From contig NC_015703.1 of NCBI RefSeq assembly GCF_000218895.1, forward strand, positions 3,671,001-3,735,000: 64,000 bases of DNA, given 5' to 3'. The stretch's first letter is position 1. The number at the start of each line of letters is the position of its first letter. The notes beneath the pieces are model-generated. The model was not told the origin of the DNA. It was given only the letters and a program-made list of their open reading frames with translations, and did no database searches. The position numbers and the translations under genes were made by a program. This DNA comes from Runella slithyformis DSM 19594 (GTDB lineage: Bacteria > Bacteroidota > Bacteroidia > Cytophagales > Spirosomataceae). Positions 6,319-50,307 of the stretch are shown piece by piece.

Positions 6319-6324
6319 CCGCTT

Positions 6325-8946: not shown

Positions 8947-9330
8947 TTAAGCAAATTCCTCTTCAACATATGTAACTGTTGCATCTCCCCAGAGTTGCTC
9001 AAGTCCGTAAAATTCGCGGCGTTCTTTCTTGAAAACGTGAACAACAACATCCACATAATCAATCAAAATCCATTCTTTGGCTTCACGCCCCTCTCGCTGC
9101 CAGGGCAATGAATTGGTGATTTTTTGTACTTCATCCTCGACGGAGTCAGCGATAGCGTCTACTTGGGTGTCGGAGTTACCCGTACAAATAACAAAGAAGT
9201 CGGTTATGGAGTTTTTTATTTCGCGCAGGTCCATCACTACGATATCCACTGCTTTTTTTTCCTGCATTCCCTTTACAACCAGCCGGCACAGTTCCTCTGA
9301 AGATATAACGTTCGATTTGCGTTGTTTCAT
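8947..9330 (-). CDS. rsfS: Ribosomal silencing factor RsfS (Iojap/YbeB)
   Basis: 127 residues. It binds ribosomal protein L14 and blocks subunit joining when nutrients are low. Signatures are 'DIVVMDLREIKNSITDFFVICTGNSDTQVDAIADSVEDEV' and 'REAKEWILIDYVDVVVHVFKKERREFYGLEQLWGDA', both diagnostic. It lies upstream of ftsH on the same strand (195-bp gap) and divergent from birA (46-bp gap). Confidence 0.96.
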   Translation of the reverse strand: MKQRKSNVISSEELCRLVVKGMQEKKAVDIVVMDLREIKNSITDFFVICTGNSDTQVDAIADSVEDEVQKITNSLPWQREGREAKEWILIDYVDVVVHVFKKERREFYGLEQLWGDATVTYVEEEFA

Positions 9331-9376
9331 GCGTAAGTTTTAAATTGCATCATTTCAATTCTAAAATTAAAAAATT

Positions 9377-10814: not shown

Positions 10815-10860
10815 AGGCCGCTGATGCGCGACCTTGCAATGACTTTAAAGGGTTGTCTCC

Positions 10861-10999
10861 TTATTTTATTTCCCTAAAATATCTTATTGAATACGGTATA
10901 GTCCATGGGTTTGCCTTTGCGGTAGGGTACTGAGCCTGCATTTTACCCACGTCCGGCGCACGAGAAATGATCACCACTTTTCCGGCTTCCGTATCTGCT
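10861..10999 (-). pseudogene. Possible C-terminal remnant of an unrecognised gene
   Basis: On the reverse strand, in a frame different from the prenyltransferase that ends at 11000, a stretch of about 46 codons runs to TAA at 10861-10863. It reads 'SFFKADTEAGKVVIISRAP', 'VGKMQAQYPTAKANPW' and 'TIPYSIRYFREIK', protein-like in composition, with no start codon of its own. It may be the tail of a gene lost next to the prenyltransferase. The family is not recognised; chance is possible. Confidence 0.3.
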
Positions 11000-13258: not shown

Positions 13259-14017
13259 ATGAGAAAAAATTTACTGCTGATTGCGCTGTTTGCTTTTTCG
13301 TTGACTGCCTGTACCCGTTATTTTGTTGCCAAGCCCGTACAACTCCGCGCCATTGCTGTCAGTGATACGTCGGCTGCTCCGACCGGGCTGCTGTCAGAAC
13401 AGATTGCTTCGTATCTCCAACCTTATCACGATAGTTTGGAAGCCCGCATGACGGCGGTGTTGGTAAAATCGCCGCGCAGACTTACCAAAGGCGTTCCTGA
13501 ATCGGAGTTGGGAAATCTGATGGCGGATATGCTTCGGGAAATGGGACAGGAGCGCTTGGGAAAACCTGTAGACGTGGCCATTACCAACAACGGAGGTATT
13601 CGTACTGACTTTCCGGCGGGCAATGTGACATTGGGCAACGTATACGAAGTAATGCCTTTTGACAATGAATTGGTGGCCATCACGCTGTCCGGCCCAACCA
13701 TGCAAAAGGTCATTGAGTATCTGGCCCAACGTAAAGAGCCGCAATCGGGTCTGAAATTGGTCATCGACAAAGCAACCAATAAACCGCTGGAGGTCTCCAT
13801 CGGTGGCAAACCGCTTGATCTTAACAAAACCTATACCCTTATCACCAGTGACTACATGGCCGTAAGCAGCGATATGGCGGCCATCGTCAAAACCAATCAG
13901 GGATTTGAGGTGCTGCATTATCTGATGCGCGATGCCATTGCCGACTATTTGCGGCGAAAAGGCCAACAAAATCAGGAACTTGACCCCAAAAAGGACGGGC
14001 GGACCAGCGTACAATAA
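13259..14017 (+). CDS. 5'-nucleotidase C-terminal-domain lipoprotein
   Basis: 252 residues: signal peptide with lipobox 'FSLTAC', then the 5'-nucleotidase C-terminal (substrate-binding) fold, seen as 'ESELGNLMADMLRE', 'VDVAITNNGGIRTDFPAGNVTLGNVYEVMPFDN' and 'YTLITSDYMA'. In most bacteria this domain is fused to a metallophosphatase domain. Here the catalytic half is the next gene, nine bases downstream, so the pair likely forms a split periplasmic UshA-like nucleotidase. Confidence 0.9.
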   Translation: MRKNLLLIALFAFSLTACTRYFVAKPVQLRAIAVSDTSAAPTGLLSEQIASYLQPYHDSLEARMTAVLVKSPRRLTKGVPESELGNLMADMLREMGQERLGKPVDVAITNNGGIRTDFPAGNVTLGNVYEVMPFDNELVAITLSGPTMQKVIEYLAQRKEPQSGLKLVIDKATNKPLEVSIGGKPLDLNKTYTLITSDYMAVSSDMAAIVKTNQGFEVLHYLMRDAIADYLRRKGQQNQELDPKKDGRTSVQ

Positions 14018-35494: not shown

Positions 35495-37744
35495 ATGGAA
35501 AAAGTAAAAACAACCTACAATCGTCGTTCATTCCTCAAAGCCTCAGCCCTTTCCGGTGGAGGAATGATGCTCAGTATTGGCTGGTTATCAAGTTTTAAAT
35601 CAGCCGAAACTCAGGGACTGACTAATCTTCCTCTTGATTTTAATGAACTGAACGGTTTTGTGAAAATTACCGCCGATAACGTCATCAAGATTATGTCGCC
35701 TAATCCCGAAGGCGGGCAGGGCGTAAAGACTTCCATGCCCATGATCGTAGCCGAAGAACTGGACGTGGATTTTTCAAAAATCGTCATCGAACAGGCCGAT
35801 CTGGACACCAAGCATTTTACCCGACAGTTTATCGGAGGCAGCCAGGCGATCCATCAGGGTTGGAAACCACTGCGTACCGCAGGAGCCACGGCGCGGCAAA
35901 TGCTCATGGAAGCGGCGGGCAAAACATGGAGCGTGCCCGTAGAAGAAGTAAGCACTGAAGCAGGCGTATTGTACCATAAAAAGTCAGGAAAAACGGCCAA
36001 GTATGGGGAGATGGCTACGGCCGCTGCCCAAATTCCCGTTCCGAAAGAGGTAAAGTTAAAAAACGTCAACGAGTTTAAAATCATCGGTAAAAGCCAACGC
36101 AACGTTGATTTAGAGAAGATTGTCAGCGGCAAACCGTTGTTTGGCATTGATACCCAAAAAGAGGGAATGCTCATTGCCATGATCGTGCATCCGCCGGCCT
36201 TTGGCATGAAATTCAAATCAACTGACGATGCAGCCGTCCGAAAAATGAAAGGGATCAAGGACGTTTTTCCCGTTAAGATTTTTCATGACGATTACGAACG
36301 GCAGTATTTCGATACCACTACTTTTTTGGAAGTGGTGGCCATTGTGGGGAATTCTACCTGGGAGGTAATGCAGGCAAAAAAAGCCCTGGAAATCGAATGG
36401 GAGCCGTTTGCCGATTATTCCGAAAAGAAAAATATGCTGGGCCGAAAACTGACAGCCAAAGTGCCGGCAGGCTTGGAAAGCACGGCCGACCATTATTCAA
36501 AAATGGCGACAATGGCCGATAAGCCGGCGACCGTTCGGCGCAAAGACGGAGACCCCGAAACGGCCTTTAAAAACGCGGCAAAAGTGCTGGAAAGAACCTA
36601 TACGGGGCCTTTTTTGGCGCACAATTGCATGGAACCCATGAACTTCTTTGCGCACGTCACCGAGGAGAAAGCTGAATTGGCCGGTCCGATCCAAAAACCC
36701 GAAAATACCGAATTGGCTTTATCGGCGCGTTTGGGAATGCCGGTAGAGAAAATTGATATAAAAATGACGCGCCTCGGGGGAGGCTTCGGGCGACGTTCGT
36801 ACGCACACTGGTTGATCGAAGCGGCCCTGATCTCTCAAAAAATGAAAGCCCCTGTGAAGTTGCTCTATACCCGGGAAGATGATATGACGTCGGGTATTTA
36901 TCGCTCGGCTTATTCGGCTACCTACCGGGCGGCGTTGGATGCCAACAATAATTTGATTGGCTTCCACGTCAAAGCCGGCGGAGTGCCGGAATCGCCTTTG
37001 TTTGCCAATCGTTTTCCGGCCGGCGCGGTGGAGAATTATTTGGCCGAAGACTGGAGTATCGAAACCAATCTTACCGTGGGCTCTTTTCGGGCTCCGCGCT
37101 CCAATTTTATGGCCGCGGCCGAGCAGTCTTTTTTGGATGAAGTGGCCGAAACGGCAGGAAAAGACCCCATTGCTTTCCGCTTGGAATTATTGAAACGAGC
37201 CAAAGAAAGTCCCGTTGGCAAAAACAACGAGTACGAACCGGAGCGTTATGCCGGTGTTTTGGAACTGGTTCGGGAAAAATCAGGCTATGAACAAACCAAA
37301 AACTCCAAGAACTTGGGCGTTTCGGCCTATTTTTGCCATGATTCGTACGCCGCTCATGTGTTTGATCTGGAAATGAAAGAGGGTATACCGGTTGTAAATA
37401 AGGTGTTTTGTGCCGTAGATTGCGGTATCGTGATCAATCCCAATGCGGCCAAAAACATGACCGAAGGTGCCATCGTGGACGGCATTGGTACAGCTTTGTT
37501 TGGGAATATGACCTTCACGAAGGGCGTACCTGATAAAAGCAATTTTAACAGGTACCGCATGATCCGTATGAATGAAGCCCCCAAGCAGATTAATGTGCAT
37601 TTTGTACAAAACACCATTGACCCTTCCGGAATGGGCGAACCGGCCTATCCGCCGGTGTTCGGAGCGTTGGCCAATGCCCTTTACAAAGCGACGGGAAGGC
37701 GATTCTATAATCAGCCTTTTAATTCGGCCTTACCTGAGCAATAA
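35495..37744 (+). CDS. Second molybdenum hydroxylase large subunit, Tat-exported
   Basis: 749 residues, closely similar in layout to the protein at 30518-32764. Tat signal 'NRRSFLKASALSGGGMMLSI'. Shared core: 'KMTRLGGGFGRRSYAHWLIEAAL', 'VGSFRAPRSNFMAAAEQSFLDEVAE' and 'SGMGEPAYPPVFGALANALYKATG' with catalytic Glu. No 2Fe-2S subunit gene adjoins it, so it either shares the one at 32803-33258 or uses one elsewhere. Likely a diverged duplicate with different substrate range. Confidence 0.9.
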   Translation: MEKVKTTYNRRSFLKASALSGGGMMLSIGWLSSFKSAETQGLTNLPLDFNELNGFVKITADNVIKIMSPNPEGGQGVKTSMPMIVAEELDVDFSKIVIEQADLDTKHFTRQFIGGSQAIHQGWKPLRTAGATARQMLMEAAGKTWSVPVEEVSTEAGVLYHKKSGKTAKYGEMATAAAQIPVPKEVKLKNVNEFKIIGKSQRNVDLEKIVSGKPLFGIDTQKEGMLIAMIVHPPAFGMKFKSTDDAAVRKMKGIKDVFPVKIFHDDYERQYFDTTTFLEVVAIVGNSTWEVMQAKKALEIEWEPFADYSEKKNMLGRKLTAKVPAGLESTADHYSKMATMADKPATVRRKDGDPETAFKNAAKVLERTYTGPFLAHNCMEPMNFFAHVTEEKAELAGPIQKPENTELALSARLGMPVEKIDIKMTRLGGGFGRRSYAHWLIEAALISQKMKAPVKLLYTREDDMTSGIYRSAYSATYRAALDANNNLIGFHVKAGGVPESPLFANRFPAGAVENYLAEDWSIETNLTVGSFRAPRSNFMAAAEQSFLDEVAETAGKDPIAFRLELLKRAKESPVGKNNEYEPERYAGVLELVREKSGYEQTKNSKNLGVSAYFCHDSYAAHVFDLEMKEGIPVVNKVFCAVDCGIVINPNAAKNMTEGAIVDGIGTALFGNMTFTKGVPDKSNFNRYRMIRMNEAPKQINVHFVQNTIDPSGMGEPAYPPVFGALANALYKATGRRFYNQPFNSALPEQ

Positions 37745-37770
37745 AGAGCATATAAGTAAAAAACTGTCGT

Positions 37771-38400
37771 ATGAATACCAATGATTTCCTCCTTTTTGCA
37801 TTTGCTACTTTAATGCTCAATCTTACGCCCGGCACCGACATGATTTATGTGGCTACGCGCAGCACTACGCAAGGTACCACAGCGGGAATTGTATCGGCGT
37901 TAGGAATTGCGGGCGGGTGCTTGGTGCATACTTTTGCCTCAGTTGTGGGACTTTCCGTCCTGATCTCAGAATCTGCCGTGGCATTCAATGTCGTCAAATT
38001 TCTGGGGGTTGGGTATTTGTGCTATTTGGGAATTACCTCATTGATAAGCAAAGAAAAACTACCGACTCCAGCCAAGCTTGAATCAACGCCTCTGAAAGAA
38101 ATCTTTTGGCAGGGAGTGTATACCAACGTCTTGAATCCGAAAGTAGCCTTATTTTTCTTGGCATTTTTACCCCAGTTTGCCGATACGCACTCCGACGATT
38201 TTAAGTGGCAGGTGTTGGGATTGGGAGCGTGGTTTAATGTTTCGGGAACGCTGGTAAATATTTTGGTAGCTGTATTGTTTGGAAAAGCAGGAAGTTATCT
38301 AAACCAATTTCCTCATTTTTCGCGCATTCAAAATAAAATGACGGGAGGGATGATGCTGGGTTTGGGTGTCTGTTTAGCGTTTGCCAAACGAGCGGAATAA
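37771..38400 (+). CDS. LysE-family translocator
   Basis: 209 residues with about six hydrophobic helices. 'NLTPGTDMIYVATRSTTQGTTAGIVSALGIAGG' is the family's N-terminal signature; 'GVYTNVLNPKVALFFLAFLPQF' is the conserved mid-region. Members export amino acids or homoserine lactones; substrate unknown. It follows the second molybdenum hydroxylase by 26 bp, so it may be co-transcribed. Confidence 0.92.
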   Translation: MNTNDFLLFAFATLMLNLTPGTDMIYVATRSTTQGTTAGIVSALGIAGGCLVHTFASVVGLSVLISESAVAFNVVKFLGVGYLCYLGITSLISKEKLPTPAKLESTPLKEIFWQGVYTNVLNPKVALFFLAFLPQFADTHSDDFKWQVLGLGAWFNVSGTLVNILVAVLFGKAGSYLNQFPHFSRIQNKMTGGMMLGLGVCLAFAKRAE

Positions 38401-38404
38401 AAAT

Positions 38405-38493
38405 GTAGGGGTAGGCCTTGCGTCTGCCCGTTTTTGTGTCTGCCCGCTTTTGTAAGGATATAAAAAAAGGGCGAAGGTAAACCCCGCCCCTAC
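38405..38493. repeat. Short palindromic repeat element
   Basis: Left arm 38405-38429 is nearly identical to the arm of the element at 1158-1328 (one G to T change). The right arm at 38469-38493 is degenerate but ends in the same 'gcccctac'. It fills the gap between convergent genes and probably terminates both. Confidence 0.75.
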
Positions 38494-38509
38494 ATAATAC
38501 GATATTTGA

Positions 38510-39064
38510 CTAGTCCTCGTCTTCTTCGTCGCTGGTGAACGAATACAACGTTGTATCAAGTTTCAGGCGACCGTTATTAAAATCGTCGATAAATTTCGTA
38601 ATGACTTCATCGGTTACGGCTTCAATATTCAGGCAGGCATCTACTCCGACACCATACTCAAACTCGGGCTCAATTTCCAGGTGTTCTTTTACCTTCACTT
38701 CCTCCTCCTCTTCAATGGATTCGATAAGTTCCGTAATAAGTTCTTCGGCTTCTTCTTCTACGGCCGGACTGATCTTATAGCCGGGAGCGCGTTCGTCCAA
38801 CGGCAAGTAATCAGGATATACTTTTTGGGCTTGTTCTACGGCTTTTTCGTAGACCAAACTGCTGTGGTGAAGGCGCAGCGTATAGATGATGGCATCATAA
38901 ATAACCTCCTGTCCTTTATAATTGCCCACAAACTGGACATGTGCCAATTCTCCGTTTTCGGAGGTGCTGACATCTTCGTCATCGCAATGAATGAAGTTGG
39001 TGCCGGCCTCAAGACACTCTTCTTTCAGCAATTTGATTTCTTCAGGGTTATATCCTTCATTCAT
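38510..39064 (-). CDS. Acidic conserved-looking hypothetical protein
   Basis: 184 residues, very acidic, with a Glu-rich stretch near residues 100-128 ('VEEEAEELITELIESIEEEE') and an acidic end 'SDEEDED'. Middle part: 'VIYDAIIYTLRLHHSSLVYEKAVEQAQ', 'YPDYLPLDERAPGYKISP'. No signal peptide or membrane helix. Likely cytosolic. I recognise no family. Codon use and length fit a real gene, and it is flanked by a terminator-like repeat. Confidence 0.7.
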   Translation of the reverse strand: MNEGYNPEEIKLLKEECLEAGTNFIHCDDEDVSTSENGELAHVQFVGNYKGQEVIYDAIIYTLRLHHSSLVYEKAVEQAQKVYPDYLPLDERAPGYKISPAVEEEAEELITELIESIEEEEEVKVKEHLEIEPEFEYGVGVDACLNIEAVTDEVITKFIDDFNNGRLKLDTTLYSFTSDEEDED

Positions 39065-39167
39065 AGTCGTAATCTGATTTTAAGATGAGTAAGAGTTGGT
39101 AAAGTAACCGAATCATTACTGAAAATCAAAGAATAGTTGGCAAATTTGGGACAAATAACCCTAGGGT

Positions 39168-40271
39168 ATGACGAATGAATTTTTTAAAGATCAGCTCAAA
39201 GTAGTTGAATTGGCAAGTGTTTTGGCAGGCCCTGCCGTCGGAATGTTTTTTGCCGAATTGGGGGCTGAAGTACTGAAAATAGAAAATAAAAAAACGGGCG
39301 GGGACATGACGCGTTCATGGAAACTTCCGTCTGAAGAGGCGGCTTCTCCGTTTTCGGCCTATTACGCAAGTGTTAACTGGAATAAAAAAACATATCTGCT
39401 TGATTTAGAAGAAGCCCACGACCGTGAGCAGGCGCACGCATTGCTCCGGGATGCCGATATCGTGATCAGTAACTACCGAACGAAGGTAGCCGAAAAGCTG
39501 GGCGTTGACTATGCAACGCTCGCTGAGCGTAACCCAACATTGATCTTTGCTCAACTGAATGCATTTGATGCCCACAGCGAACGGCCCGCTTTTGATGTAG
39601 TGCTTCAGGCCGAAGCCGGGTTTCTGTATATGAACGGTGAAGCTGACGGCCCGCCCGTCAAAATGCCGGTAGCCTTGATTGATGTCTTGGCGGCGCATCA
39701 GTTAAAAGAAGGTATTTTATTGGCGTTACTGCGCCGAACTCACACCGGCAAAGGGGCGTATGTCTCGGTTTCTTTATTTGATTCGGCAGTAGCGTCGTTG
39801 GCCAATCAGGCAACCAATTGGCTGATGGCGGGGCATATTCCCCAACGAATGGGAACGCAGCATCCTACCATTGCGCCTTATGGAGATATGTATCAGTGTA
39901 AGGACGGAAAGTCTATCGTACTGGCGGCAGGCACCGAAAAGCATTTTCAACAGCTCTGTGAAGTATTGGGTTTGTCCGAGTTATTGACCGAAACATCGTT
40001 TAGTACCAACGCGGCCCGCGTCAGAAATCGAGTCTCCCTGAATAGCCGGTTGGCAGAAAAAATTGTTCATTGGAAGGCAGAATCATTGCTTGGTAAGCTG
40101 GAAGAAAGAAGTGTTCCTGCGGCAGTGATCCGTACCCTGCAGGAGGTGTTTGAATTGCCGGCCGCTCAGGCGATGGTCTTAGAGGAAATACTGCCGGACG
40201 GAACTGTCAGCAAAAGGGTCAAAACGGTGGCATTTGAGGTGGATGAACGTTCACTAAAGTTTATTTCTTAA
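39168..40271 (+). CDS. CaiB/BaiF-family CoA transferase
   Basis: 367 residues, class III CoA transferase. 'KVVELASVLAGPAVGMFFAELGAEVLKIENKKTGGDM' at the N-terminus contains the family pattern; 'VNWNKKTYLLDLE', 'LGVDYATLAERNPTLIFAQLNAF' and 'FDVVLQAEAGFLYMNGE' (catalytic Asp region) follow. Substrate unknown. Its last codons and stop (TAA 40269-40271) lie within the displaced coaE 3' fragment, indicating that it was once convergent with, and overlapped, coaE. Confidence 0.92.
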   Translation: MTNEFFKDQLKVVELASVLAGPAVGMFFAELGAEVLKIENKKTGGDMTRSWKLPSEEAASPFSAYYASVNWNKKTYLLDLEEAHDREQAHALLRDADIVISNYRTKVAEKLGVDYATLAERNPTLIFAQLNAFDAHSERPAFDVVLQAEAGFLYMNGEADGPPVKMPVALIDVLAAHQLKEGILLALLRRTHTGKGAYVSVSLFDSAVASLANQATNWLMAGHIPQRMGTQHPTIAPYGDMYQCKDGKSIVLAAGTEKHFQQLCEVLGLSELLTETSFSTNAARVRNRVSLNSRLAEKIVHWKAESLLGKLEERSVPAAVIRTLQEVFELPAAQAMVLEEILPDGTVSKRVKTVAFEVDERSLKFIS

Positions 40272-40367
40272 ACAGCAAATGCAGTTTCCACACCTGCGGA
40301 ATCAGCAATCGGCTCTCATCATTGTAAATTATAAAGTCGGCGATTTGCCGGCGCTCTTCGTCGGAGA
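40261..40367 (-). pseudogene. Displaced 3' end of coaE (dephospho-CoA kinase)
   Basis: 107 bp matching 44598-44704, the real coaE 3' end, without gaps; a hand count gives 94 identical positions. Reverse-strand reading gives 'ERRQIADFIIYNDESRLLI' followed by 'PQVWKLHLLFKK' and stop, differing from CoaE at only four conservative positions (Glu/Lys, Phe/Tyr, Ile/Val, Arg/Lys). It has no start or upstream coaE sequence. It marks the far edge of the island. Confidence 0.92.
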
Positions 40368-40371
40368 GGTA

Positions 40372-42592
40372 TTAATGGGCCGCAAAGTGTTTTTGATTGC
40401 TTCCATTTATACCGTTTTGTTGTTCCCAAAGCATCGAATATTGCCCATTATGATTGGTCAGTAATTGTTCATAGGTTCCTTCTTCTACCAATTTACCCTC
40501 GTGCAGCACCACAATTTTATCAGCATTTTTAACCGTACTCATGCGGTGAGCAATCAAAATGACAGTAATGCCTTCCTGACGCAATAAATGGAGGGTACGT
40601 TGCACAAATTGCTCTGAATGAGCATCTAAGGAGGAGGTAGCTTCGTCTAAAATCAAAATTTGCGGAGTGCGGTATAAGGCTCTTGCAATAGCTAATCGTT
40701 GCCGTTGACCTCCCGAGAGATTTGCCCCTCGTTCTCCCAATTGGGTTTGAAAGCCATTGGGGAGTTTTTCAATAAAATCAGTAATGCCCAACAGGTTGCA
40801 GTAAAAAATAAGTTTTTTCATGTCGGGTTCATACTCTCCCACCGCAATATTTTCAACAACTGTGCCGGCAAACAGGTCGATTTGCTGCGGTACAACGCTT
40901 ACCATCTGACGCAGACTGACATTGTCCAGGTAATTGATATCATAGCTACCTATAAAAATGTTGCCTTCCCGCAAGGGGTATAAATTTTGGAGAAGGGATA
41001 ATAACGTAGATTTACCACTGCCGCTTTCGCCCACTACTGCGTTAATTTTCCCTTTAGGAAGCAGTAAACTCAATTTATCAAATACTGTTACTCGTGCCCC
41101 GTAGCGAAAAGACACCTCTTTAAATAGAATATCCCCCATCATGTCAGGCGTTAACAGAATTTTGTTGGCGGTCGCTTCGCGTTCCAAATCCATGATTTCA
41201 AACAACCTGTCGGCAGCAATGAGGGCATCCTGCAGGGTTTTATTCATGCCGATAAGCCCCGAGGCCGGTCCGGTAAAATACCCGATCAAAGAATAAAACG
41301 AAAGCAGTTCGCCGGGAGTCAATGTATTGTCCAACACAAAACCTGATCCCACCCAAAGCAGTATAATGGTGAATACCCCCGTAATCAGGGCTGAAGCATT
41401 ACCAATGTACAGCCCTCGGGTAGCGGTGAAATAAATGGTGCGCAGCAAACCGATAAAGCGATTTTCTGTTTTTAGATTGGCAAATTCTTCAAGGCCAAAA
41501 CGTTTGATGGTAGCAACGTTGTTTAAAGACTCCACCAGTTGGGTTTCCAACTCAGCGCTGTTTTCCATCAATTTTTGCGATTAATGCGGTTGGCGATGAA
41601 GTACGTAAAGGCGTAAAACGGAATAATGCCCAGCATGATCAATGCCAGTTTCCAGTCGTAGGTAAACATTAATCCGAAAGAAAACAGCACAATAAATACA
41701 TCGACAACCAAATTTAGCGCTACATCGTTAAGGAAAACCCGAATTTTGACGGCGTCATTGACCCGTGAAATAATCTCTCCTACGCGCATCGTATCAAAAA
41801 ACGATTGCGGCAGTTTGAGCAAATGTTTATAATAGCCTAAAATCAGTTGAGCATCGATTTGTTGGCCGGTTTTGAGGGCGAAAAGTGTTTTGCCCGAGCC
41901 GATGAACAATTGCAACAGGGTAATTGCCATCATGCCGATACTCATCAGATTCAGCAAGTTACGATTACCTTCCACCAATACATTGTCTACAATCTTTTGG
42001 ACATAGATAGACGTGGCAAGCCCCAAAACGGTATAGATGATGGCTCTGAAAAGAGCTTCCAGCATTACTGAGCGGTGGGGACGAATAAGCTGCCAAAACC
42101 GGGCAGCTACGGATGTTTTTTCGTTGCCCTGCTGAAAGTCATCACCGGGAAGGAGCAATACTAATACCCCCGTCCACATTTGCAAAAAAGCATCATGGGT
42201 TTTCCTGGAAATATTTCCATCGGCGGGATCCATGACGGTGAGGTATTTTTCTGAAACATCATAAATAACGATGTAATGGTGCAATCCCGCTCCCGATGCT
42301 TCTGCTTGGGCGGCCGGTCCGTTTGTGGGCAAAGGTGTATTAATTACAACGTGGGCAATAGCGGGTTTAGGGATTTTTTGCAGGCTTTCGGGTGTGCCTT
42401 TTACCCCTTTTGCCTGAAAACCCAATCGATTGGCTGCTTCGATCATTCCGAGCACATTGGTGCCTCTTTTGTCAGTACCGGCGTATTGGCGAATTCGGGC
42501 AATGGGCATTTGTAATGCGCGGCTACCGATGCCAAACACGCCGCACCGCAATCCGTAATATCATGCTGTTTTATTTCTGTTTGTTTTTTCAT
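40372..42592 (-). pseudogene. C39-peptidase-containing ABC exporter (bacteriocin type), two frameshifts
   Basis: Full-length frame would begin ATG at 42592 (MKKQTEIKQHDITDCGAACL, with catalytic Cys) and give about 740 residues: C39 peptidase, six-helix membrane domain, ATPase with 'VVGESGSGKSTLLSLL' and 'GANLSGGQRQRLAIARALYR'. Two breaks are seen. Near 42508-42518 the frame shifts between 'ASVAAHYK' and 'LQMPIARIRQ'; loss of one 7-bp repeat (TTACAAA) would explain it. Near 41570-41576 an A5 run lacks one base between 'RINRK' and 'LMENSAEL'. Such transporters cleave double-glycine leaders and export the peptide. Ends 4 bp from the island edge. Confidence 0.85.
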
Positions 42593-42613
42593 AGGCTGTA
42601 TTTTCTTCGCTTA

Positions 42614-42889
42614 TTATAAGGAAGTGGCAGAATGCGGAGAGGCTTCCGTTCGATTTGGATTTAGCCAATCTTCTACTTTATCGAAAAGCAGTTGAGACAA
42701 AGTTCGGCGGGTAACCACAAATCCGGCCTGTAAGGTCATGCCCTTTTGCAGGCGCGTTTCATAGCCATTTTGAAGTTTTAAGGCGGTTGTTGCTAAACGA
42801 CATTTGACCCGAAAAAAGGCCTCATTGGGTTTTGAAGCGCCTGAGGCAGGCGGTATTGTAAAGTCTTTGGCAATATCTGTCAATGAAAC
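42614..42889 (-). pseudogene. C-terminal fragment of an HlyD-type membrane fusion protein
   Basis: About 90 residues: 'FFRVKCRLATTALKLQNGYE', 'LQKGMTLQAGFVVTRRTLSQ' and 'LLFDKVEDWLNPN' form the usual C-terminus of bacteriocin-export membrane fusion proteins. The N-terminal anchor and coiled coil (some 300 residues) are missing; upstream bases belong to a CPBP fragment in another frame. It lies 21 bp before the exporter start, the normal order. Confidence 0.8.
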
Positions 42890-43124
42890 AATAACCAAAA
42901 ATAATCCCAGTAAATAGCATATTGATTACATAAAGCCAGTTATAAGAGTGACTAATTGAAAAAAATAATGCAGATATTACTATTCCAATATTTTCGTTTT
43001 TGAAAATTCGCTTAGATAATTTTATAATACTATATTGAAAAATTAGTGTTTCTATTATAGGTACTACTAATACTACTACAATAAATAACTGTATATCTGT
43101 AAGTTTAGACAAATCAGCCCCCAT
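42890..43124 (-). pseudogene. CPBP-family intramembrane protease fragment
   Basis: Reading from ATG at 43124: 'VVLVVPIIETLIFQYSIIKL' (E.xxFQ form of the EExxxR motif), 'VISALFFSISHSYN' (conserved His) and 'MLFTGIIFGYCF'. The match ends near 42890, where membrane-fusion sequence starts in another frame. In-frame residues ('LFGFISEVIGNTNAL') extend upstream of the ATG to a stop near 43173 without a start codon, so both ends appear lost. CPBP proteins often give immunity to or process bacteriocins. Confidence 0.65.
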
Positions 43125-43323
43125 TAAAGCATTGGTATTGCCTATAACTTCAGAAATAAAACCAAATAAATTTTAAACTAATAATTGGATAAAAACGAAA
43201 CAAATAATAAAAACGAAAATGTTTGATTTTGAAGTGAGTAATTCAAAAAATATGACTATTCTATTTTGAATTACTGATAATTTATTTATTTCAGTATTCA
43301 TCTCAATTGACAGAATTTAGTAT

Positions 43324-43360
43324 CTACAGAAGGTAATCTAACTTAGATTACCTTCTGTAG
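43324..43360. terminator. Perfect 18-bp-arm palindrome after the peptide genes
   Basis: ctacagaaggtaatctaa (43324-43341) and its exact complement (43343-43360) flank a single base. It lies 24 bp after the stop of the second peptide gene on the reverse strand and would end the regulator-peptide transcript. A-T-rich flanks favour termination. Confidence 0.85.
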
Positions 43361-43383
43361 AATATAATTGAACTTTTTCAAAA

Positions 43384-43608
43384 TCAGTGACCAGCAGTAC
43401 CGTATTTTTCTATATTACTTTCTCGCCACTTGTTAAACTCACTCCAAAGCCCCTCTGCAGCAGTTACTGCCCCTCTGACATAGAGCCCTACAGCGTAGCC
43501 AAAACCATAGTGAGTTTGGTCGCCGCCATTCGATTCTATAAGTTCTGTTTGATTTAAAGAAGTTACTGAATACTTGCTTAAATCAAGGTTTGAATTTTTA
43601 TTGTACAT
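43384..43608 (-). CDS. Double-glycine-leader peptide (bacteriocin-like) 1
   Basis: 74 residues from ATG at 43608 (alternative two codons upstream). Leader of 29 residues ends 'SLNQTELIESNGG', with the pattern Leu-12, Glu-8, Leu-7, Gly-2, Gly-1 for C39-peptidase cleavage. Predicted mature peptide is 45 residues, starting 'DQTHYGFGYAVGLYVRGA' and ending 'RESNIEKYGTAGH', Gly/aromatic-rich, without Cys. No known bacteriocin family is recognised. The exporter nearby is broken, so export may depend on another transporter. Confidence 0.75.
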   Translation of the reverse strand: MYNKNSNLDLSKYSVTSLNQTELIESNGGDQTHYGFGYAVGLYVRGAVTAAEGLWSEFNKWRESNIEKYGTAGH

Positions 43609-43631
43609 AACCAATTAGTTTTAATGTTTAT

Positions 43632-43841
43632 TTATTTTTTTTCGTAATTATAAGGTTTACCATTAACAGCATCATTAAAGCCCTTTGAGATATCATCCCA
43701 ATTTGAAATAATTTCCTCTGCTAACCACATACCAAGTGCCCAAGGAGTCCAAGATTTAGGTTTAGCTCCCCCGTCAATTTCTAACAATTCACTCTGACCA
43801 ATTTCAGATACTCCATATTCGTTCAATTCCAACGTTTTCAT
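43632..43841 (-). CDS. Double-glycine-leader peptide (bacteriocin-like) 2
   Basis: 69 residues from ATG at 43841 (frame open to 43868). The 25-residue leader ends 'IGQSELLEIDGG' (Ile-12, Glu-8, Leu-7, Ile-4, Gly-Gly). Predicted mature peptide is 44 residues: 'AKPKSWTPWALGMWLAEEII' then a hydrophilic part ending 'KPYNYEKK', likely helical with three Trp. It lies 23 bp before peptide 1, so the two could be a two-peptide system. Function inferred from layout only. Confidence 0.75.
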   Translation of the reverse strand: MKTLELNEYGVSEIGQSELLEIDGGAKPKSWTPWALGMWLAEEIISNWDDISKGFNDAVNGKPYNYEKK

Positions 43842-43878
43842 AATTTTAAAAGGTTTTTTGTAAAACATTTATTGAGCG

Positions 43879-44265
43879 TCATTGGGGGCGGTGTTGGCCA
43901 ACGGTGCTTTCATGACGTTGTAAACATAAATCAGAGTCAATGAAATAAAATTTCAGTGGACTGATTATTTTTTCAGCGTGGCTTGCTGCAATATAGCCTC
44001 CGTCGATGTGGGTGAGGTCGGTATTGCTGAGGGGCGTAATACCGTAAGTAAACTCAAAATGTAGCGGTTGGGTATAATAGTAGGTTTGCCAAACGGGGTC
44101 ATATTCAATAGGGATATTCATGTCGCGCAGCTCTTTTAAATAGTTGTACACCTGCCGTTCGGTTACGCCCAATTTCACGGCAAGTTGTTTGGGGCTTTCT
44201 GTGGTGCCTTTGCTGATAAGGTGATGTAATTTCCTATATCGTTGAATTTGTTCAGTTAATGGCAT
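43879..44265 (-). CDS. HTH regulator with a C-terminal double-glycine-leader motif
   Basis: 128 residues from ATG at 44265 (MPLTEQIQRYRKL; frame open to 44301). Residues about 10-50 form an HTH of the DeoR/HTH_11 type ('ESPKQLAVKLGVTERQVYNYLKELRD'). After 'YDPVWQTYYYTQPLHF' the protein carries 'LSNTDLTHIDGG' at 79-90, matching the leaders of the two peptide genes downstream (Leu-12, Asp-8, Leu-7, Ile-4, Gly-Gly). A 38-residue tail follows. First gene of the peptide operon, so probably its regulator; a cleavable peptide at its end is a hypothesis. Confidence 0.72.
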   Translation of the reverse strand: MPLTEQIQRYRKLHHLISKGTTESPKQLAVKLGVTERQVYNYLKELRDMNIPIEYDPVWQTYYYTQPLHFEFTYGITPLSNTDLTHIDGGYIAASHAEKIISPLKFYFIDSDLCLQRHESTVGQHRPQ

Positions 44266-44597
44266 ATTTAAAAGCACATTACTTGAATTTTTGCTATTCA
44301 AAACCCTATTATTCTATCCTATATTTTTTTAAGTATAACATTTTTTATCACAAATAAAAAATTTGATTTTGTCCATTTTCATGAGTAAATTATTTAGATA
44401 CCACACCACAAATAAAATTTATCCTTAAGTGTATTTGTTACTTGAAAGAAAGGTATATAAAACAAAAAATAATCAAAAATGTAAACCTATGTCTATGAAT
44501 AAATATAGGGCCTACGCTTTGCAGAAAGGCTCAATAAAATTGAATAAAAGGGGAAAATTGGAAGAATATAAAATACAGAAGGTTGCCTTGCCAATGA

Positions 44598-45185
44598 TTA
44601 TTTCTTAAACAATAAATGCAGTTTCCACACTTGCGGAATCAGCAATTTACTTTCGTCATTGTAGATTACATAGTCGGCGATTTGTCGGCGCTCTTTGTCG
44701 GAGATTTGTCGGGCAATAATGTCGCGGATTTCTTTTTCGGAGCGCTGGGGGTCGCGCTGTAATACGCGGGTTACGCGCAGGGCCACGGGAGCATCGACCA
44801 CGATCACTTTATCCAGGGCGTTGTTTTGGCCCGCTTTGGCCATGATGGCGGCTTCTTTTACCACGTAGGGAGCCGCCGCATTTTGTTTCATCCATGCTTC
44901 GGTATCTTCTCTTACTCGTGGATGAACAATGGCATTCAGTTGTTGCAGCAGGGAAGGATTTTGAAAGACTTGACTCGCTACCCAGGCGCGGTTATAGGTG
45001 CTGTTGGCTGTATACGCCTCATTACCCAATAATTCAATCACAGAACGTTGGAGTTGGTGGTCGTGATTCAGCAGCCATTTGGCGCGCTCATCGGCGTAGT
45101 AGACGGGTACTCCCAACGCCGAAAAAATCCGACATACCATGCTCTTGCCTGAGCCAATACCGCCTGTCACACCGATTTGAAGCAT
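44598..45185 (-). CDS. coaE: Dephospho-CoA kinase
   Basis: 195 residues. Phosphorylates dephospho-CoA, the last step of CoA synthesis. P-loop 'GVTGGIGSGKSMVCRIFSALG' at the N-terminus, then 'YYADERAKWLLN', 'IVHPRVREDTEAWM', 'KEAAIMAKAGQNNALDKVIVVDAP' and lid region 'RDPQRSEKEIRDIIARQ'. Last gene of the nusB-ytxH-DUF1573-yajC-ybbR cluster. Its final 107 bp have a second, displaced copy at 40261-40367, so the C-terminus was probably supplied by the integrated island. The gene is intact. Confidence 0.96.
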   Translation of the reverse strand: MLQIGVTGGIGSGKSMVCRIFSALGVPVYYADERAKWLLNHDHQLQRSVIELLGNEAYTANSTYNRAWVASQVFQNPSLLQQLNAIVHPRVREDTEAWMKQNAAAPYVVKEAAIMAKAGQNNALDKVIVVDAPVALRVTRVLQRDPQRSEKEIRDIIARQISDKERRQIADYVIYNDESKLLIPQVWKLHLLFKK

Positions 45186-45268
45186 GTGCTTAAAGGGTTA
45201 GTTTGGGATTACCGATTTTCGATTGTGGAATTCCGAAGAAGTTTGAAATGAGCCTTTGAAAAAAACAG

Positions 45269-46048
45269 TTATTTCTTTTTGGATTTCTTCTTTTCGGCCT
45301 TTTCCTTTTTGGCAGCCGGTAGGTTAACTTCTTCGGTTGCAGGAGCGGCAGGAGGAGTACTGCCCAATAATTCCGCTACTTCAAAACTCACAAACACACG
45401 GTCAGCACTCGCTTTCAGCAGTGGGGATTGGGGATAGCGAATGAGAAGTTCTTCGTCGTAGTTGCCGCGTATTTTTTTTGCCGGCACGCGTACAAGGATG
45501 GTATCGGCAATATCAGTGACCAAAGAAGCCGGTCCGTCAAAGGTGACGGTGGAAGGGCGCAGATTAATGAAACTGGATACCACAAACCGAGGTAAGAGAT
45601 CCAAATTGGCGCTGTCGGCCCTTAATACCGTCGTTTTTACCATTCGTTCTTCAAAATCCAGACTGTTGATATCGAGCATTACGTTGGTCATTCGAACATC
45701 CTTTACCTGCTCGTGCATCAGGGTTGTCAATAGCGCAGAGTTGAGGCTGCGGGTAACAAGGGGATTGGTAATTGGGTACTGTACGGGAGAAACTGTAAAG
45801 GAAAGGGATTTTCGGAGCAGTGTCCAGCCGTTTCCGTTCAGCGTTGCCGTTACACTTTTGGGAAGCGGAGTGATGGGAATATAGAGAGAATCGTTATAGG
45901 TCAAATGAATGGGGTACTGCACCTGAAGGGTGTAGCCTTCCTTATTGAGCTCATTAAAAAGCCAGATGATCGTAGCCGCAACCATACTTAAGAGGAGGAT
46001 GCGGCTACGGGAAGGTTGGGAAGAAAGCGGTAGTTGCGCCACGTTCAA
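45269..46048 (-). CDS. YbbR-like (CdaR-type) domain protein
   Basis: 259 residues. One N-terminal membrane helix ('ILLLSMVAATIIWLFNEL') then beta-rich repeats: 'YPIHLTYNDSLYIPI', 'PKSVTATLNGNGWTLLRKSL' and 'LRPSTVTFDGPASLVTDIAD', similar to YbbR repeats. The C-terminus is Lys-rich ('KKEKAEKKKSKKK'). In Firmicutes CdaR controls diadenylate cyclase; no such cyclase is in view. Same strand as yajC and coaE, likely one operon. Confidence 0.7.
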   Translation of the reverse strand: MNVAQLPLSSQPSRSRILLLSMVAATIIWLFNELNKEGYTLQVQYPIHLTYNDSLYIPITPLPKSVTATLNGNGWTLLRKSLSFTVSPVQYPITNPLVTRSLNSALLTTLMHEQVKDVRMTNVMLDINSLDFEERMVKTTVLRADSANLDLLPRFVVSSFINLRPSTVTFDGPASLVTDIADTILVRVPAKKIRGNYDEELLIRYPQSPLLKASADRVFVSFEVAELLGSTPPAAPATEEVNLPAAKKEKAEKKKSKKK

Positions 46049-46127
46049 TCAATGTGTTTTTGTCAGTAGGCCGGGGATGATGAATAAAGATTCGTCTCTG
46101 TATGCTACACACCTGACCTGCTGATTC

Positions 46128-46439
46128 TTAGGATGCACTCGTACCTGCCAAACGAGAAACGGACGATTTCTCAAATTTCATTTTTGTGCCTTTGCTGCTG
46201 TCTACCTCAAGCGTAACGGTGGTTTCATAGACCGATACTACGGTGCCGTGCAAGCCGCCGATGGTGATTACTTCATCCCCTTTTTTAAGTTCTTCCAAAA
46301 ACTTCTTCTGGTCTTTCTGCTTTTTTTGTTGTGGACGAATCATAAAAAAGTAGAACACGCCGATGATCCCTGCCCAAAGCAGAAGTTGATAGATCATGGA
46401 AGATTGGCCTCCGGCCTGTAAAAAAATGCTGTTCAGCAT
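46128..46439 (-). CDS. yajC: Preprotein translocase subunit YajC
   Basis: 103 residues. An N-terminal helix ('[26 protein letters not shown]') is followed by '[22 protein letters not shown]', the YajC signature. Accessory subunit of the SecDF complex in the inner membrane. Next to the DUF1573 lipoprotein gene on the same strand. Confidence 0.95.
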
Positions 46440-46478
46440 GGGTTTATGGTTATGAGTGAAAGGTTAGTTAGAAATGAA

Positions 46479-46919
46479 TTAAATAGAGCCAGTTGCCGTG
46501 GAATCCTTCGCCGCTTCTACATCTGCTTTGAATTGTATATCGGTGGTGGCAGGATTGGTATTGGCAAAAATGGTGACGGTTTTAAACTGTTGTCCCTGTT
46601 TACCTTTGCTGTTGAAGCGAACCAAAATGGCCCCTTCTTCGCCCGGGCCGATGGGCTCACGGGGCCATTCCGGAATGGTACAGCCGCAGGAAGCGCTTAC
46701 GTTGTTGATGATGAGGGGAAAGTCACCCGCATTCTTAAATTTATACGTATGTTCTACCTGTTGCCCTTCTTTGAGCGTACCGAAATCAGTGTTTTTAATG
46801 TCTTCTGCAAACTCAAATTTGGGAAGTTTATCGTCCAGACTGCTCGTGGCAGATTTTTCCTGATTGCTTCCACAGGAAAAAAGGGCAATACTCAGTAATG
46901 TTAAAAAAATGTATCGCAT
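46479..46919 (-). CDS. DUF1573 lipoprotein
   Basis: 146 residues. Signal peptide with lipobox 'IALFSC' precedes a single Ig-like DUF1573 domain: 'FGTLKEGQQVEHTYKFKNAG', 'PLIINNVSASCGCTIPEWP' and 'GAILVRFNSKGKQGQQFKTV'. Family members are abundant in Bacteroidota; function unknown. Overlaps no neighbour; 12 bp before the YtxH-like gene's end. Confidence 0.9.
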   Translation of the reverse strand: MRYIFLTLLSIALFSCGSNQEKSATSSLDDKLPKFEFAEDIKNTDFGTLKEGQQVEHTYKFKNAGDFPLIINNVSASCGCTIPEWPREPIGPGEEGAILVRFNSKGKQGQQFKTVTIFANTNPATTDIQFKADVEAAKDSTATGSI

Positions 46920-46931
46920 ACTAGGCCGAAA

Positions 46932-47234
46932 TTAAGCAGTTTGTCCTTTGATTTGAGCCATTAGTCGGTCTACATCTTCCAGTAAACGTTCCGCTTTTTC
47001 GCGGGCATCGGTGACCACTTTCTGCCCTTCGGCTTTGGCCAGGCTGTCGGGCAGATCTTTACCTTCCAGTAGGTCCGCAATCAGTCCCTGCAATTGTTCA
47101 CGGTATTTTGAAAGACGGTACGACAGTTTGTCACGCGTAATTTCACCTTTTTCAGGAGCGTACAGCACTCCGATGGCGACACCGGTAGTGACACCGGCCA
47201 GAAATGATATCAGTACTCTTGATGAATTGCTCAT
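46932..47234 (-). CDS. YtxH-domain protein
   Basis: 100 residues. N-terminal glycine-rich helix 'VLISFLAGVTTGVAIGVLYAPEKGEITRDKLSYRL' is the YtxH signature; the rest is charged and helical, likely coiled coil. Small membrane-associated protein sometimes linked to stress. Function unknown here. Between nusB and the DUF1573 gene on the same strand. Confidence 0.87.
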   Translation of the reverse strand: MSNSSRVLISFLAGVTTGVAIGVLYAPEKGEITRDKLSYRLSKYREQLQGLIADLLEGKDLPDSLAKAEGQKVVTDAREKAERLLEDVDRLMAQIKGQTA

Positions 47235-47297
47235 GTGTTTTGATTTTAATTGTTTTCAGTTCAGTGCTGCCGGTAAAAGCTCGTCTTTCCCCCGGAT

Positions 47298-48470
47298 TTA
47301 TTTATTATCCAACAATCCCCTTCCGCTTTTGCGGATTTTTCCTTCTTTAATCAGCGTTTTGGAAAGAGTATCTAAGATTCCATTGACAAATTTACCACTT
47401 TTTGGCGTACTATATTCTTTAGCGATTTCAATTGCTTCGTTTATTGTCACCTTTACGGGGATTCCGGGGAAGCTCATCATCTCGGAAACGCTCATTTTCA
47501 GGATCAAATAGTCCATCGGGGCCAGTCGTTCCAAATCCCAGTTTTTGAGCGGCTCGGCAATGATCTGCTCAATTTCGTCGTTGCGGGTGATGGTTTGCTC
47601 AAACAACTCTTCCATAAAAAAGCGGTCTTCCTCCCAATCATCGGTCAACGGAACCAGTTGCAGACCCGTTTCTTCGATGGTGGATTTCAGCGATTTGTTA
47701 GCCATTTTACGGGCAAGATCGCCGTTTTCGCTCCAATACAGATCGTTGAGTTCAAAGAAAGTGACCACTTCTTCATTTTTCAGAATGACCTCTTTGAGGG
47801 CATTCAGCATGAGTTGAAGGTCTTCTTCGGGGGTATGTTCTTTGGTTTCACAATACGCACGATAGGCGTCATCATTACGAAATACATCCCGAAAGAGGGT
47901 ACGGACGAGCCCGGTAGTTTCTTTTCCCCAGGTAATGCCGCGCCGAATAAATTCGTTTTCCAGGGTTTTATTTTCGGTCAGGGCAATGACTACCCGATTG
48001 GTATCAAAACCGGCTACTTTCGAGAGTGGCTTATTGTCAGGATCGTCGTATTGCCGTTCGCGCTCACCCTGCGAAAGAGCGCCTAATTCAATGAAGAGCT
48101 GTAAAAGAAGCAGATACGTATTATAGATGGCTTCGACTTCGGGCGTTAACTGCCGGGAGATGCGCTGCTTATCTTTTTTGAATAAATCCTGATAATACCT
48201 TAGCGCATTTTTGGCCGTGACAAAGGCAGCAGGCGGGGTATCTTCATCTTGGGTAATATCGCCTTTGCGGTAATTTTCCTCCAATAAAAGTGTGGTCATT
48301 TTTCGCATTCCTTCCAATTTCCGGGGATCTTGGGGGGTCATGGAATTGAGGTCCGGCCTGAATGATTCCGAAATGAAATCAAGGGCCAATTGATAGTCTG
48401 CCTCGCGGGCAGCTTGCAGAGCGTAAAGGGATTGCAGCACCTTTACGCGCAGGTGTCTTCGACTTAACAT
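47298..48470 (-). CDS. nusB: Transcription antitermination factor NusB, long form
   Basis: 390 residues, against about 140 in E. coli. It begins 'MLSRRHLRVKVLQSLYALQAAR', then carries a long insertion typical of Bacteroidota, and ends with the usual NusB core 'WDLERLAPMDYLILKMSVSEM' and 'INEAIEIAKEYSTPKSGKFVNGILDTL'. Acts with NusE in ribosomal RNA antitermination. First gene of the nusB-to-coaE run on the reverse strand, divergent from recA. Confidence 0.95.
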   Translation of the reverse strand: MLSRRHLRVKVLQSLYALQAAREADYQLALDFISESFRPDLNSMTPQDPRKLEGMRKMTTLLLEENYRKGDITQDEDTPPAAFVTAKNALRYYQDLFKKDKQRISRQLTPEVEAIYNTYLLLLQLFIELGALSQGERERQYDDPDNKPLSKVAGFDTNRVVIALTENKTLENEFIRRGITWGKETTGLVRTLFRDVFRNDDAYRAYCETKEHTPEEDLQLMLNALKEVILKNEEVVTFFELNDLYWSENGDLARKMANKSLKSTIEETGLQLVPLTDDWEEDRFFMEELFEQTITRNDEIEQIIAEPLKNWDLERLAPMDYLILKMSVSEMMSFPGIPVKVTINEAIEIAKEYSTPKSGKFVNGILDTLSKTLIKEGKIRKSGRGLLDNK

Positions 48471-48685
48471 TCAGTCTTAAAATTTGTGCAAATAAGCAGC
48501 AAGGAAAAGAACTTGCTTGTGTTTCCGGGCGCAAAGGTACATTAAATAACCCAATTTTTCCAAGTTTACTCGTGACTCCGGAGATAAATCGGAAGCAGAA
48601 GGGTCCGTTCAGGGACTGAATTTTTGCACTTATTTTTATTGTTCCAATAAAGAAAGAACCCGCCTTGCATAGGCCAAAAAAAGAG
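48471..48685. other. Intergenic region between nusB and recA
   Basis: The 330 bp between the two divergent genes hold no coding frame I can support. Apart from the recA promoter candidate at its right end, no hairpin or LexA-like site was recognised. Confidence 0.5.
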
Positions 48686-48716
48686 TTGGGAATGTCACAG
48701 AAAAACCGTAATTTTA
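48686..48716 (+). promoter_or_regulatory. Candidate promoter for recA
   Basis: TTG at 48686-48688 and TAATTTTA at 48709-48716 are 20 nt apart, one base off the Bacteroidota TAnnTTTG -7 consensus, about 85 nt before the recA ATG. Confidence 0.45.
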
Positions 48717-48800
48717 CTTCTATAATGGTGGCTACTTAAGGTAGTAAAATTTCGTCAGTACTAAAATTTATAATCAGCTGTAAAGCAACAATTTAATCCA

Positions 48801-49859
48801 ATGGCAGACAACAAAGAACAGAAGTTTAAAGCCCTGCAGACAACACTTGAGAAGCTGGATAAAGCCTATGGAAAAGGCACCGTGATGCGTCTCAGTGACA
48901 AAAAAGTAATGGACGTGGAAGTCATTTCAACGGGTTCCGTTGGGCTGGACTTAGCGTTAGGAATCGGCGGATTGCCACGCGGACGGGTCGTTGAAATCTA
49001 TGGCCCTGAATCATCAGGAAAAACCACGCTGGCCATGCACTGCATAGCCGAAGCACAAAAAGCCGGCGGCTTGGCAGCATTCATTGATGCCGAGCACGCG
49101 TTTGACCGTACTTACGCCCAAAAATTAGGGATTGATACGCAAAATTTATTGATTTCACAGCCCGATAACGGTGAACAGGCTCTCGAAATTGCCGAACATC
49201 TGATTTCCTCCGGTGCCATTGACATCATCGTGATCGACTCTGTCGCCGCGCTGGTGCCGAAGGCCGAAATCGAAGGTGAAATGGGGGACAGCAAAATGGG
49301 TTTACAGGCCCGTTTGATGTCGCAGGCATTACGTAAGCTGACCGGGGTAATCAACCGGACTAACTGCTGTTGTATCTTTATCAACCAGTTGCGTGATAAA
49401 ATCGGGGTTATGTTCGGAAGTCCTGAAACAACCACCGGCGGTAACGCGTTGAAATACTACGCATCGGTGCGTTTGGATATCCGCCGTATCGGTCAGATTA
49501 AGGAAAGCGCTGACAATATTACCGGTAACCGTACCAAAGTGAAAGTGGTGAAAAATAAACTGGCACCGCCGTTTAAGGTCATCGAATTTGATATCATGTA
49601 CGGAGAAGGTATCTCTAAAGTGGGCGAGATCATTGACTTAGCGGTCGAATTGGAGATCGTTAAAAAATCCGGTTCATGGTTTAGCTACGATGGTAATCGC
49701 CTGTCGCAGGGACGTGATGCCGTGAAACAGTTGCTGAAAGATAATCCGGAACTGACCGAAGAACTGGAAGCCAAAATTCGGGCCAAAGTCAACGAAGATG
49801 AAAATGCGCTCATCGATACCCTTGAGCCAAACATCGTGGATGATGGTAAACCGGAATAA
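48801..49859 (+). CDS. recA: Recombinase RecA
   Basis: 352 residues. Walker A 'GPESSGKT' at 68-75, Walker B '[21 protein letters not shown]', DNA-binding loops near '[17 protein letters not shown]' and '[23 protein letters not shown]', and an acidic C-terminus. Intact and normal length. Catalyses strand exchange and LexA-type cleavage. Followed by a large palindromic repeat array. Confidence 0.98.
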
Positions 49860-49875
49860 GGTTTAAATACAAATG

Positions 49876-50307
49876 GTAGGGGCAGGCTTTACGTCTGCCC
49901 TTTTTTTGTGCAATTGTGCTTTACGTCTGCCCTTTTTTTGTGCAATTGTGCTTTACGTCTGCCCTTTTTTGTGCCGTCCTTTTTATTCTTCTGTTTTGTA
50001 TATTTTTTGTTAAAAAACAGTCGGATAGGTATGCTTTACAGACGCAATACCGAGCAGAATTATGTGACAATACCTGATAGACACAATACCGGGCAGACGC
50101 AAGGCCTGATAGACACAATACCGGGCAGACGCGAGGCCTGATAGACACAATACCGGGCAGACGCAAGGCCTGATAGACACAATACCGGGCAGACGCAAGG
50201 CCTGATAGACACAATACCGGGCAGACGCGAGGCCTGATAGACACAATACCGGGCAGACGCAAGGCCTGATAGACACAATACCGGGCAGACGCAAGGCCTG
50301 CCCCTAC
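49876..50307. repeat. Palindromic repeat element with a 7-copy 32-bp tandem array
   Basis: Left arm 49876-49900 and right arm 50283-50307 are near-complementary 25-bp sequences of the same family as 1158-1328. After the left arm, two more degenerate copies of 'tttacgtctgccc' plus T-runs follow. Then a 32-bp unit beginning 'tagacacaatacc' and containing 'gggcagacgcaaggcctg' is repeated seven times at 50078, 50110, 50142, 50174, 50206, 50238 and 50270. Units alternate mainly between 'acgcaagg' and 'acgcgagg'. All three reverse frames stay open across the array; none looks like a gene. Confidence 0.93.

Follow-up and report, generated by a model that had tools for sequence, protein, structure and literature searches.

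The coaE end occurs twice

In the genome of Runella slithyformis DSM 19594, direct repeats flank a block of peptide-export genes, and one of the two copies terminates an intact gene, coaE. How did this block come to lie beside coaE, and which of the two coaE ends is the original one? The region was analysed within a stretch of 64,000 nucleotides (NC_015703.1, positions 3,671,001 to 3,735,000), which is called the window here; coordinates count from its first letter, and numbers for genomes (G) and loci (L) are used where they have to be told apart. An ungapped match of 107 bp in the same orientation had been described for 40261-40367 and 44598-44704, and we confirmed it with 94 of 107 identical positions. 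One edge of the repeat is the coaE stop codon and the other is a sharp loss of identity at 40367/44704, 107 nt upstream, where 8 identical bases lie at the hard outer boundary. With the 107-nt repeat as query, the 6.9-Mb genome gave two places in all (E <= 0.001), the second copy at 1.7e-32. The preliminary description had counted four changes in 34 residues between the two ends; the count is right (E/K, F/Y, I/V and R/K), but not all of them are conservative, since E/K reverses the charge. No tRNA gene was found within the window, and a scan of 36000-50000 gave no Rfam family at the gathering threshold. The features are as follows.

39168..40271, plus strand: family III CoA transferase, the native convergent neighbour, with its stop inside the displaced tail (PF02515, E 6.5e-95; convergent with coaE in 5 of 12 congeners)
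40261..40367, minus strand: displaced native coaE 3' end, last 34 codons and stop, now a fragment (94/107 to 44598-44704; aligned through the coaE/CoA-transferase junction of five congeners)
40372..41571, minus strand: peptidase-containing ABC exporter (PCAT), C-terminal part (PF00005, PF00664; 82.5% identity with the intact G002 exporter over its residues 340-728)
41568..42551, minus strand: PCAT middle part in another frame, C39 and membrane region (PF00664, PF03412; frame change against the intact G002 exporter)
42443..42592, minus strand: PCAT N-terminal C39 start in a third frame (PF03412 just under the cut-off; comparison with the G002 exporter)
42614..42898, minus strand: HlyD-type adaptor, reduced to a C-terminal remnant (similar to the G002 HlyD, 399 aa, over residues 325-395; no Pfam match)
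42822..43124, minus strand: CPBP/Rce1-like membrane protease, apparently truncated (by eye) and running into the HlyD remnant (PF02517, E 1.2e-11)
43384..43614, minus strand: putative peptide precursor with a GG-type leader (by eye; no family match)
43632..43868, minus strand: putative peptide precursor with a GG-type leader (by eye; 24-residue leader match to a G002/G005 peptide; no family match)
43879..44301, minus strand: HTH protein with a GG motif near the C-terminus (PF08279, E 7.6e-7)
44302..44597, no strand: AT-rich spacer from the cluster to the coaE stop (G+C 0.31 in 44250-44749)
44598..44704, minus strand: current coaE 3' end, probably the incoming one (7 of 13 differences derived here, against four congeners)
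44598..45185, minus strand: coaE, dephospho-CoA kinase, intact (PF01121, E 4.2e-41)

The block is an insertion beside a native coaE end

In 5 of 12 congeners (G010, G006, G001, G004 and G009), coaE and the CoA transferase are directly convergent between the same outer neighbours. These are empty sites, and the 4.2-kb block between the two coaE ends is an insertion, as had been proposed; relatives without the insert, which the preliminary description had suggested looking for, thus exist. Other genes separate coaE from the CoA transferase in G011 and G012, a sodium:solute symporter gene (PF00474) adjoins coaE in G003 and G007, a related cluster follows coaE in G002 and G005, and the contig of G008 runs out 0.9 kb past coaE. 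In G011, about 1.3 kb of other sequence interrupts the CoA transferase (L025 6535-8908).

The stranded tail and the CoA transferase of the window align continuously through the junction of all five empty sites. Thus, the stranded coaE end occupies its native position. The CoA transferase ends within the displaced copy (stop at 40269-40271) and overlaps the coaE end by 11 nt, in agreement with the preliminary description. That description had also reconstructed the same overlap before the insertion, and this part did not stand: in the five empty-site congeners an earlier TGA ends the CoA transferase, which leaves no overlap with coaE. The corresponding window codon (40251-40253) is TCA, and the window frame continues into the coaE tail.

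The cargo is a partly broken peptide-export cluster

All on the minus strand and in this order, the insert encodes an HTH protein and two putative GG-leader precursors, remnants of a CPBP-type protease and of HlyD, and a C39-ABC exporter spread over three frames. The C39 peptidase and ABC exporter domains (PF03412, PF00664 and PF00005) are present over the three frames, so the content is a peptide-secretion cluster, as had been noticed from the sequence, though a partly broken one. Compared with the intact G002 gene, the window exporter has two frame changes. The leaders of the two precursors were assigned by eye alone, and family models gave no match to them. The HTH protein has matches in 31 other genomes of the family (222 in total, E <= 1e-6). 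The window cluster probably has no self-sufficient function. At 2.82 Mb the genome has a further exporter locus, whose exporter frame is open over 735 aa. On the far side of the cluster, 4 bp (40368-40371) separate the exporter stop codon from the displaced coaE tail.

The G+C content is 0.42-0.53 in 36000-42500 and in 44500-50000. The peptide part of the cluster (42500-44750) goes down to 0.29 and is clearly AT-richer than the exporter part and the flanks.

The same genome has a second broken exporter cluster (L118, about 5600-11500), which overlaps the end of lipA by 4 bp; a different gene follows lipA in G006, G004 and G001. This cluster was considered as a second case of a displaced end and was rejected, with the last 300 bp of lipA uncopied in the locus (chance matches of 12-19 nt) and no drop of identity at the lipA end.

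Which coaE end is new

The 13 differences between the two copies were polarised with G006, G010, G001 and G004 as outgroups. Seven are derived in the current coaE end, four in the stranded copy, and two are ambiguous. Three of the four derived changes in the stranded copy are synonymous and the fourth is common to G010, and the stranded copy has neither a stop nor an indel. Since its derived changes are few and mostly synonymous, selection probably kept it working as a coaE end until recently, although the numbers are small. Its recent function, which the preliminary description had proposed, is thus well supported.

The two copies could instead have arisen at one place, the coaE end being duplicated locally as the cluster was inserted and the far copy decaying afterwards, with no second lineage involved. 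In a tree of the 107 nt the two window copies are mutual nearest relatives (ultrafast bootstrap 93), and they have 5 sites in common against the four nearest congeners, which is what such a duplication would give. However, a non-coding copy is expected to gain more changes, mainly non-synonymous ones, and the stranded copy has four, at most one of them non-synonymous, versus seven in the working gene. Under neutral decay of the stranded copy, the probability of no more than one non-synonymous change in four is 0.03-0.07, the range reflecting the transition bias; if all 13 differences arose in the copy, the probability of no more than five non-synonymous changes is 0.002-0.014. Both values rest on small numbers. 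Local duplication with decay is disfavoured by the direction and the kind of the changes, and also by one of three tails in another genus (see below), and we regard it as improbable.

The pairing of the two copies also bears on their source. It had been expected that a tree would place them in different lineages; at this sampling they pair together, and therefore any donor would be a close, unsampled relative. The nearest coaE end is that of G006, with 97/107 identical positions to the stranded copy and 93/107 to the current end. G006 has no such cluster, and no donor for the current coaE end was found.

A second cluster after coaE in two congeners

In two congeners, G002 and G005, coaE and the symporter gene are separated by an intact cluster composed of an HTH_3 regulator, a GG peptide, an HlyD of 399 aa and an exporter of 742 aa. 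Where the cluster is absent, the spacing between coaE and the symporter gene is 55 bp (G003) or 24 bp (G007). Between G002 and G003, the last 163 nt of coaE have 30 differences and the 437 nt upstream have 28 (permutation p 0.001); between G005 and G003, 44 differences are found in the last 216 nt and 25 in the 384 nt upstream (permutation p 0.001). From the exporter end on, the far side is again close to G003, with an identity of 91-99% for G002 and 88-98% for G005 in full 107-nt windows. The far join lies inside the last codons of the exporter, which continue as the sequence that follows coaE in G003. A stranded coaE tail was searched for in G002 and G005, and none was found. A perfect inverted repeat of 13 bp (L022 from 5232, L023 from 9794) is located after coaE in G003 and in the last codons of the exporter in G002 and G005.

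G002 and G005 gained a related cluster after coaE separately, with another exchange point, further upstream in coaE, and another far join. It seems, then, that a coaE end came in with a cluster on two occasions, and that neither the exchange point nor the far join was the same in both. The cluster parts that adjoin coaE differ between the window and G002/G005. A shared origin of the coaE-linked clusters of the window genome (G000) and G002/G005 is not claimed, because the exporter tree of eight sequences is unresolved (supports 31 and 34) and the coaE-side parts differ.

A test for mosaic coaE genes gave p <= 0.01 in 5 of 11 pairs: G002-G003, G005-G003, G006-G001, G010-G004 and G000-G006. coaE looks mosaic in G006-G001 and G010-G004 though both pairs are without an insert. 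Between the window species and G006, the 3' part of coaE is less divergent, with 40/261 versus 93/338 differences (p 0.009); this is the reverse of what G002 and G005 show and a point against import. Relatives are about 20% divergent along coaE, and the exchange point in the window species was not locatable. Because just two of the five significant pairs involve G002/G005, the mosaic structure was demoted from proof of import to supporting evidence.

Repeats at exporter ends in other genera

Forty-eight exporter loci were selected, 40 from genomes outside Runella with a located coaE and 8 from Runella and G166; 47 were testable, and L119 was left out as too short. The 500 bp past each exporter stop were compared with the upstream region. 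A direct repeat beginning 2-59 bp past the exporter stop was found in 5 of the 47 loci, namely the window, G149, G148, G146 and G166. These repeats are 90-329 nt long and 87-95% identical, and 3.1-4.8 kb separate the matched exporter part from the partner upstream of it. The five loci represent three lineages rather than five independent events; G149, G148 and G146 belong to one genus (g22) and may go back to one event. As controls, 500 bp located 3 kb downstream gave zero matches in the 47 loci, and the stretch past coaE gave matches in 2 of 40 regions, all inverted but one direct piece of 22 nt. Dispersed direct repeats were also more frequent near exporters (9 of 40 regions) than near coaE in the same genomes (1 of 40; Fisher p 0.014). 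This excess was set aside, since some of these repeats lie inside clusters and may be paralogues, and the repeats at the exporter stop were used instead.

In g22 the repeat is the 3' end of a convergent gene of 349 aa (BNR_2 match just below the cut-off), the full copy of which begins 5 bp past the exporter stop. The G146 tail is identical to the G149 gene at 89/92 positions and to its own gene at 85/92. The G149 tail is nearest to its own gene (160/173), as a local duplication would predict, and the G148 tail has 82-83/111 to all three g22 genes. Thus one of the three tails, that of G146, supports import and speaks against local duplication, being nearer to another species than to its own gene; G149 points the other way and G148 shows no preference. 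In G166, which is of another genus, a direct repeat of 329 nt with 89% identity (L135 7840-8156 / 13466-13794) is the end of an HTH_3 regulator and flanks a peptide-export cluster.

The regulator stop is 11 bp from the tail in G146 and 3 bp from it in G148, and 14 bp from the coaE stop in G002/G005; therefore, several cassettes span from the regulator stop to the exporter stop. Such a regulator is absent from the window cluster, and G149 is without the regulator-stop arrangement at that place. In G009 (L119), an extra peptide/CPBP module and a truncated HlyD start lie ahead of a full HlyD-exporter pair, and two direct repeats are seen (408-532/2593-2718 and 1838-2119/3730-3996).

How the cluster entered

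The preliminary description proposed site-specific integration at the 3' end of coaE. In this reading, an integrative element with an att core about 107 nt before the coaE stop carried a replacement end, and its recombinase was lost or acted in trans. The geometry is the same as that of the prophage e14 in icd, with the displaced tail on the far side, and the hard boundary of the repeat with its 8 identical bases would suit an att core. A run of this length, however, has a chance of about 0.36 at 88% identity. The genome has 18 matches to the tyrosine recombinase domain (PF00589), none in the window and the nearest 136 kb from coaE, so the earlier remark that no integrase is seen holds for PF00589; the scanned insert proteins of the window and of G002/G005 contain no recombinase domain. 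A coaE match was found in 216 of 222 family genomes, and two matches are present in the window genome and otherwise in G095 and G049 alone: G095 has one coaE gene in two adjoining pieces, and the second match of G049 has 29% identity and is on another contig. Among the other 215 genomes with a coaE match, none had a recognisable displaced coaE tail (one query, E <= 0.001, at which short or very divergent tails could escape). Other elements at the same coaE boundary, which had been expected, were not seen among the 216 genomes with a coaE match. Moreover, the exchange point in G002/G005 is elsewhere and leaves no tail, and the repeats at other genes in other genera are not expected from one att specificity. 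In the literature, as judged by titles and the beginnings of abstracts, no report of coaE as a site of integrative elements was found. Site-specific integration is therefore unsupported. It is nevertheless the main rival explanation, since e14/icd shows that an integrase could make such a geometry, and we consider it rather unlikely.

Another way to the same flanking duplication, again without a recombinase, would be a single crossover of a circular molecule that carried a coaE 3' fragment and the cluster, as in plasmid-type insertion-duplication. By itself this does not give the arrangement in G002/G005, which have no second copy. A plasmid source was rejected as no plasmid record matches the region closely at megablast sensitivity, a search from which records of this genome may be left out. 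A viral source was rejected as well, with no coaE relative in viral_contigs. We think the circular molecule quite unlikely.

Host recombination is favoured because the exchange points, the far joins and the target genes vary, and because of the G146 tail. The explanation that we prefer, to which we give slightly better than an even chance, is import of the cluster by homologous recombination anchored in coaE together with a non-homologous join at the exporter end. The donor would be a closely related Runella outside the sample, in which the cluster already followed coaE. The GG-peptide export cluster, partly decayed, would have entered beside coaE together with the coaE 3' end of the donor. 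The incoming DNA would have paired with the recipient inside coaE by ordinary homologous recombination, and its other end, the exporter 3' end, would have joined the recipient coaE 107 nt before the stop without extended homology. The outcome would be an intact coaE with a new end, followed by the cluster and, next to the native CoA transferase, by the stranded native end. At the far join, identity is lost abruptly 4 bp past the exporter stop in the window and at the exporter end in G002/G005. The cluster is broken yet the stranded tail is intact; the breaks may be older than the import, or so short a tail may not be informative. As to the route of DNA uptake, a ComEC-family gene is present in the genome, and likewise in 10 of 14 control genomes; it is no proof of competence.

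Relation to known systems

The closest likeness is e14 in icd of Escherichia coli K-12. A displaced tail of 163 bp is described there (PMC6379469), with 12 substitutions, 10 of them synonymous, and 11-bp direct repeats as the recombination site (PMC4759930). As described there (PMC6379469, PMC4759930), e14 has in common with the Runella case an insert at the 3' end of a housekeeping gene, a replacement end, a stranded old end and mostly synonymous differences. They differ in that e14 is a prophage with site-specific recombination at the 11-bp repeat, whereas in the Runella case neither a recombinase nor a second tail-bearing coaE site was found and the exchange points vary.

In the type VI effector-immunity arrays of Vibrio cholerae, displacement of modules has been reported and homology-facilitated illegitimate recombination has been proposed (PMC5361080). 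These modules (PMC5361080) resemble the import preferred for Runella in having one homologous anchor, one non-homologous join and older genes that remain downstream; the Vibrio anchor is part of the secretion locus, whereas the Runella anchor would be a housekeeping gene beside the cluster. Homology-facilitated illegitimate recombination has been demonstrated experimentally with transformation and conjugation (PMC3240628). The same type of join is proposed for Runella, where it is read from sequence.

The bacteroidetocins are a Bacteroidetes example of GG-peptide clusters with a peptidase-containing ABC exporter (PMC6671954). The theme of peptide secretion is common to both, the exporter and GG-leader type of Runella having been assigned from the sequence. 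In the Runella cluster the exporter is frame-broken, the adaptor is a remnant and the peptides are putative.

Significance

If the import reading is true, a small cluster of the competition type can enter beside an essential gene without damage to it and without encoding a recombinase, by carrying a replacement end for the gene. The stranded end would then be a record of the event, which keeps the old allele of the recipient and puts the events in order. It is also conceivable, though doubtful, that the regulator-peptide-protease-adaptor-exporter cassettes of the Spirosomaceae are recombinase-free mobile units with near-fixed ends (regulator stop and exporter stop), which replace the 3' ends of neighbouring genes via host recombination and leave dateable scars. 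Exporter-end repeats in two other genera hint at a way for peptide-export loci to spread that searches for integrases would miss.
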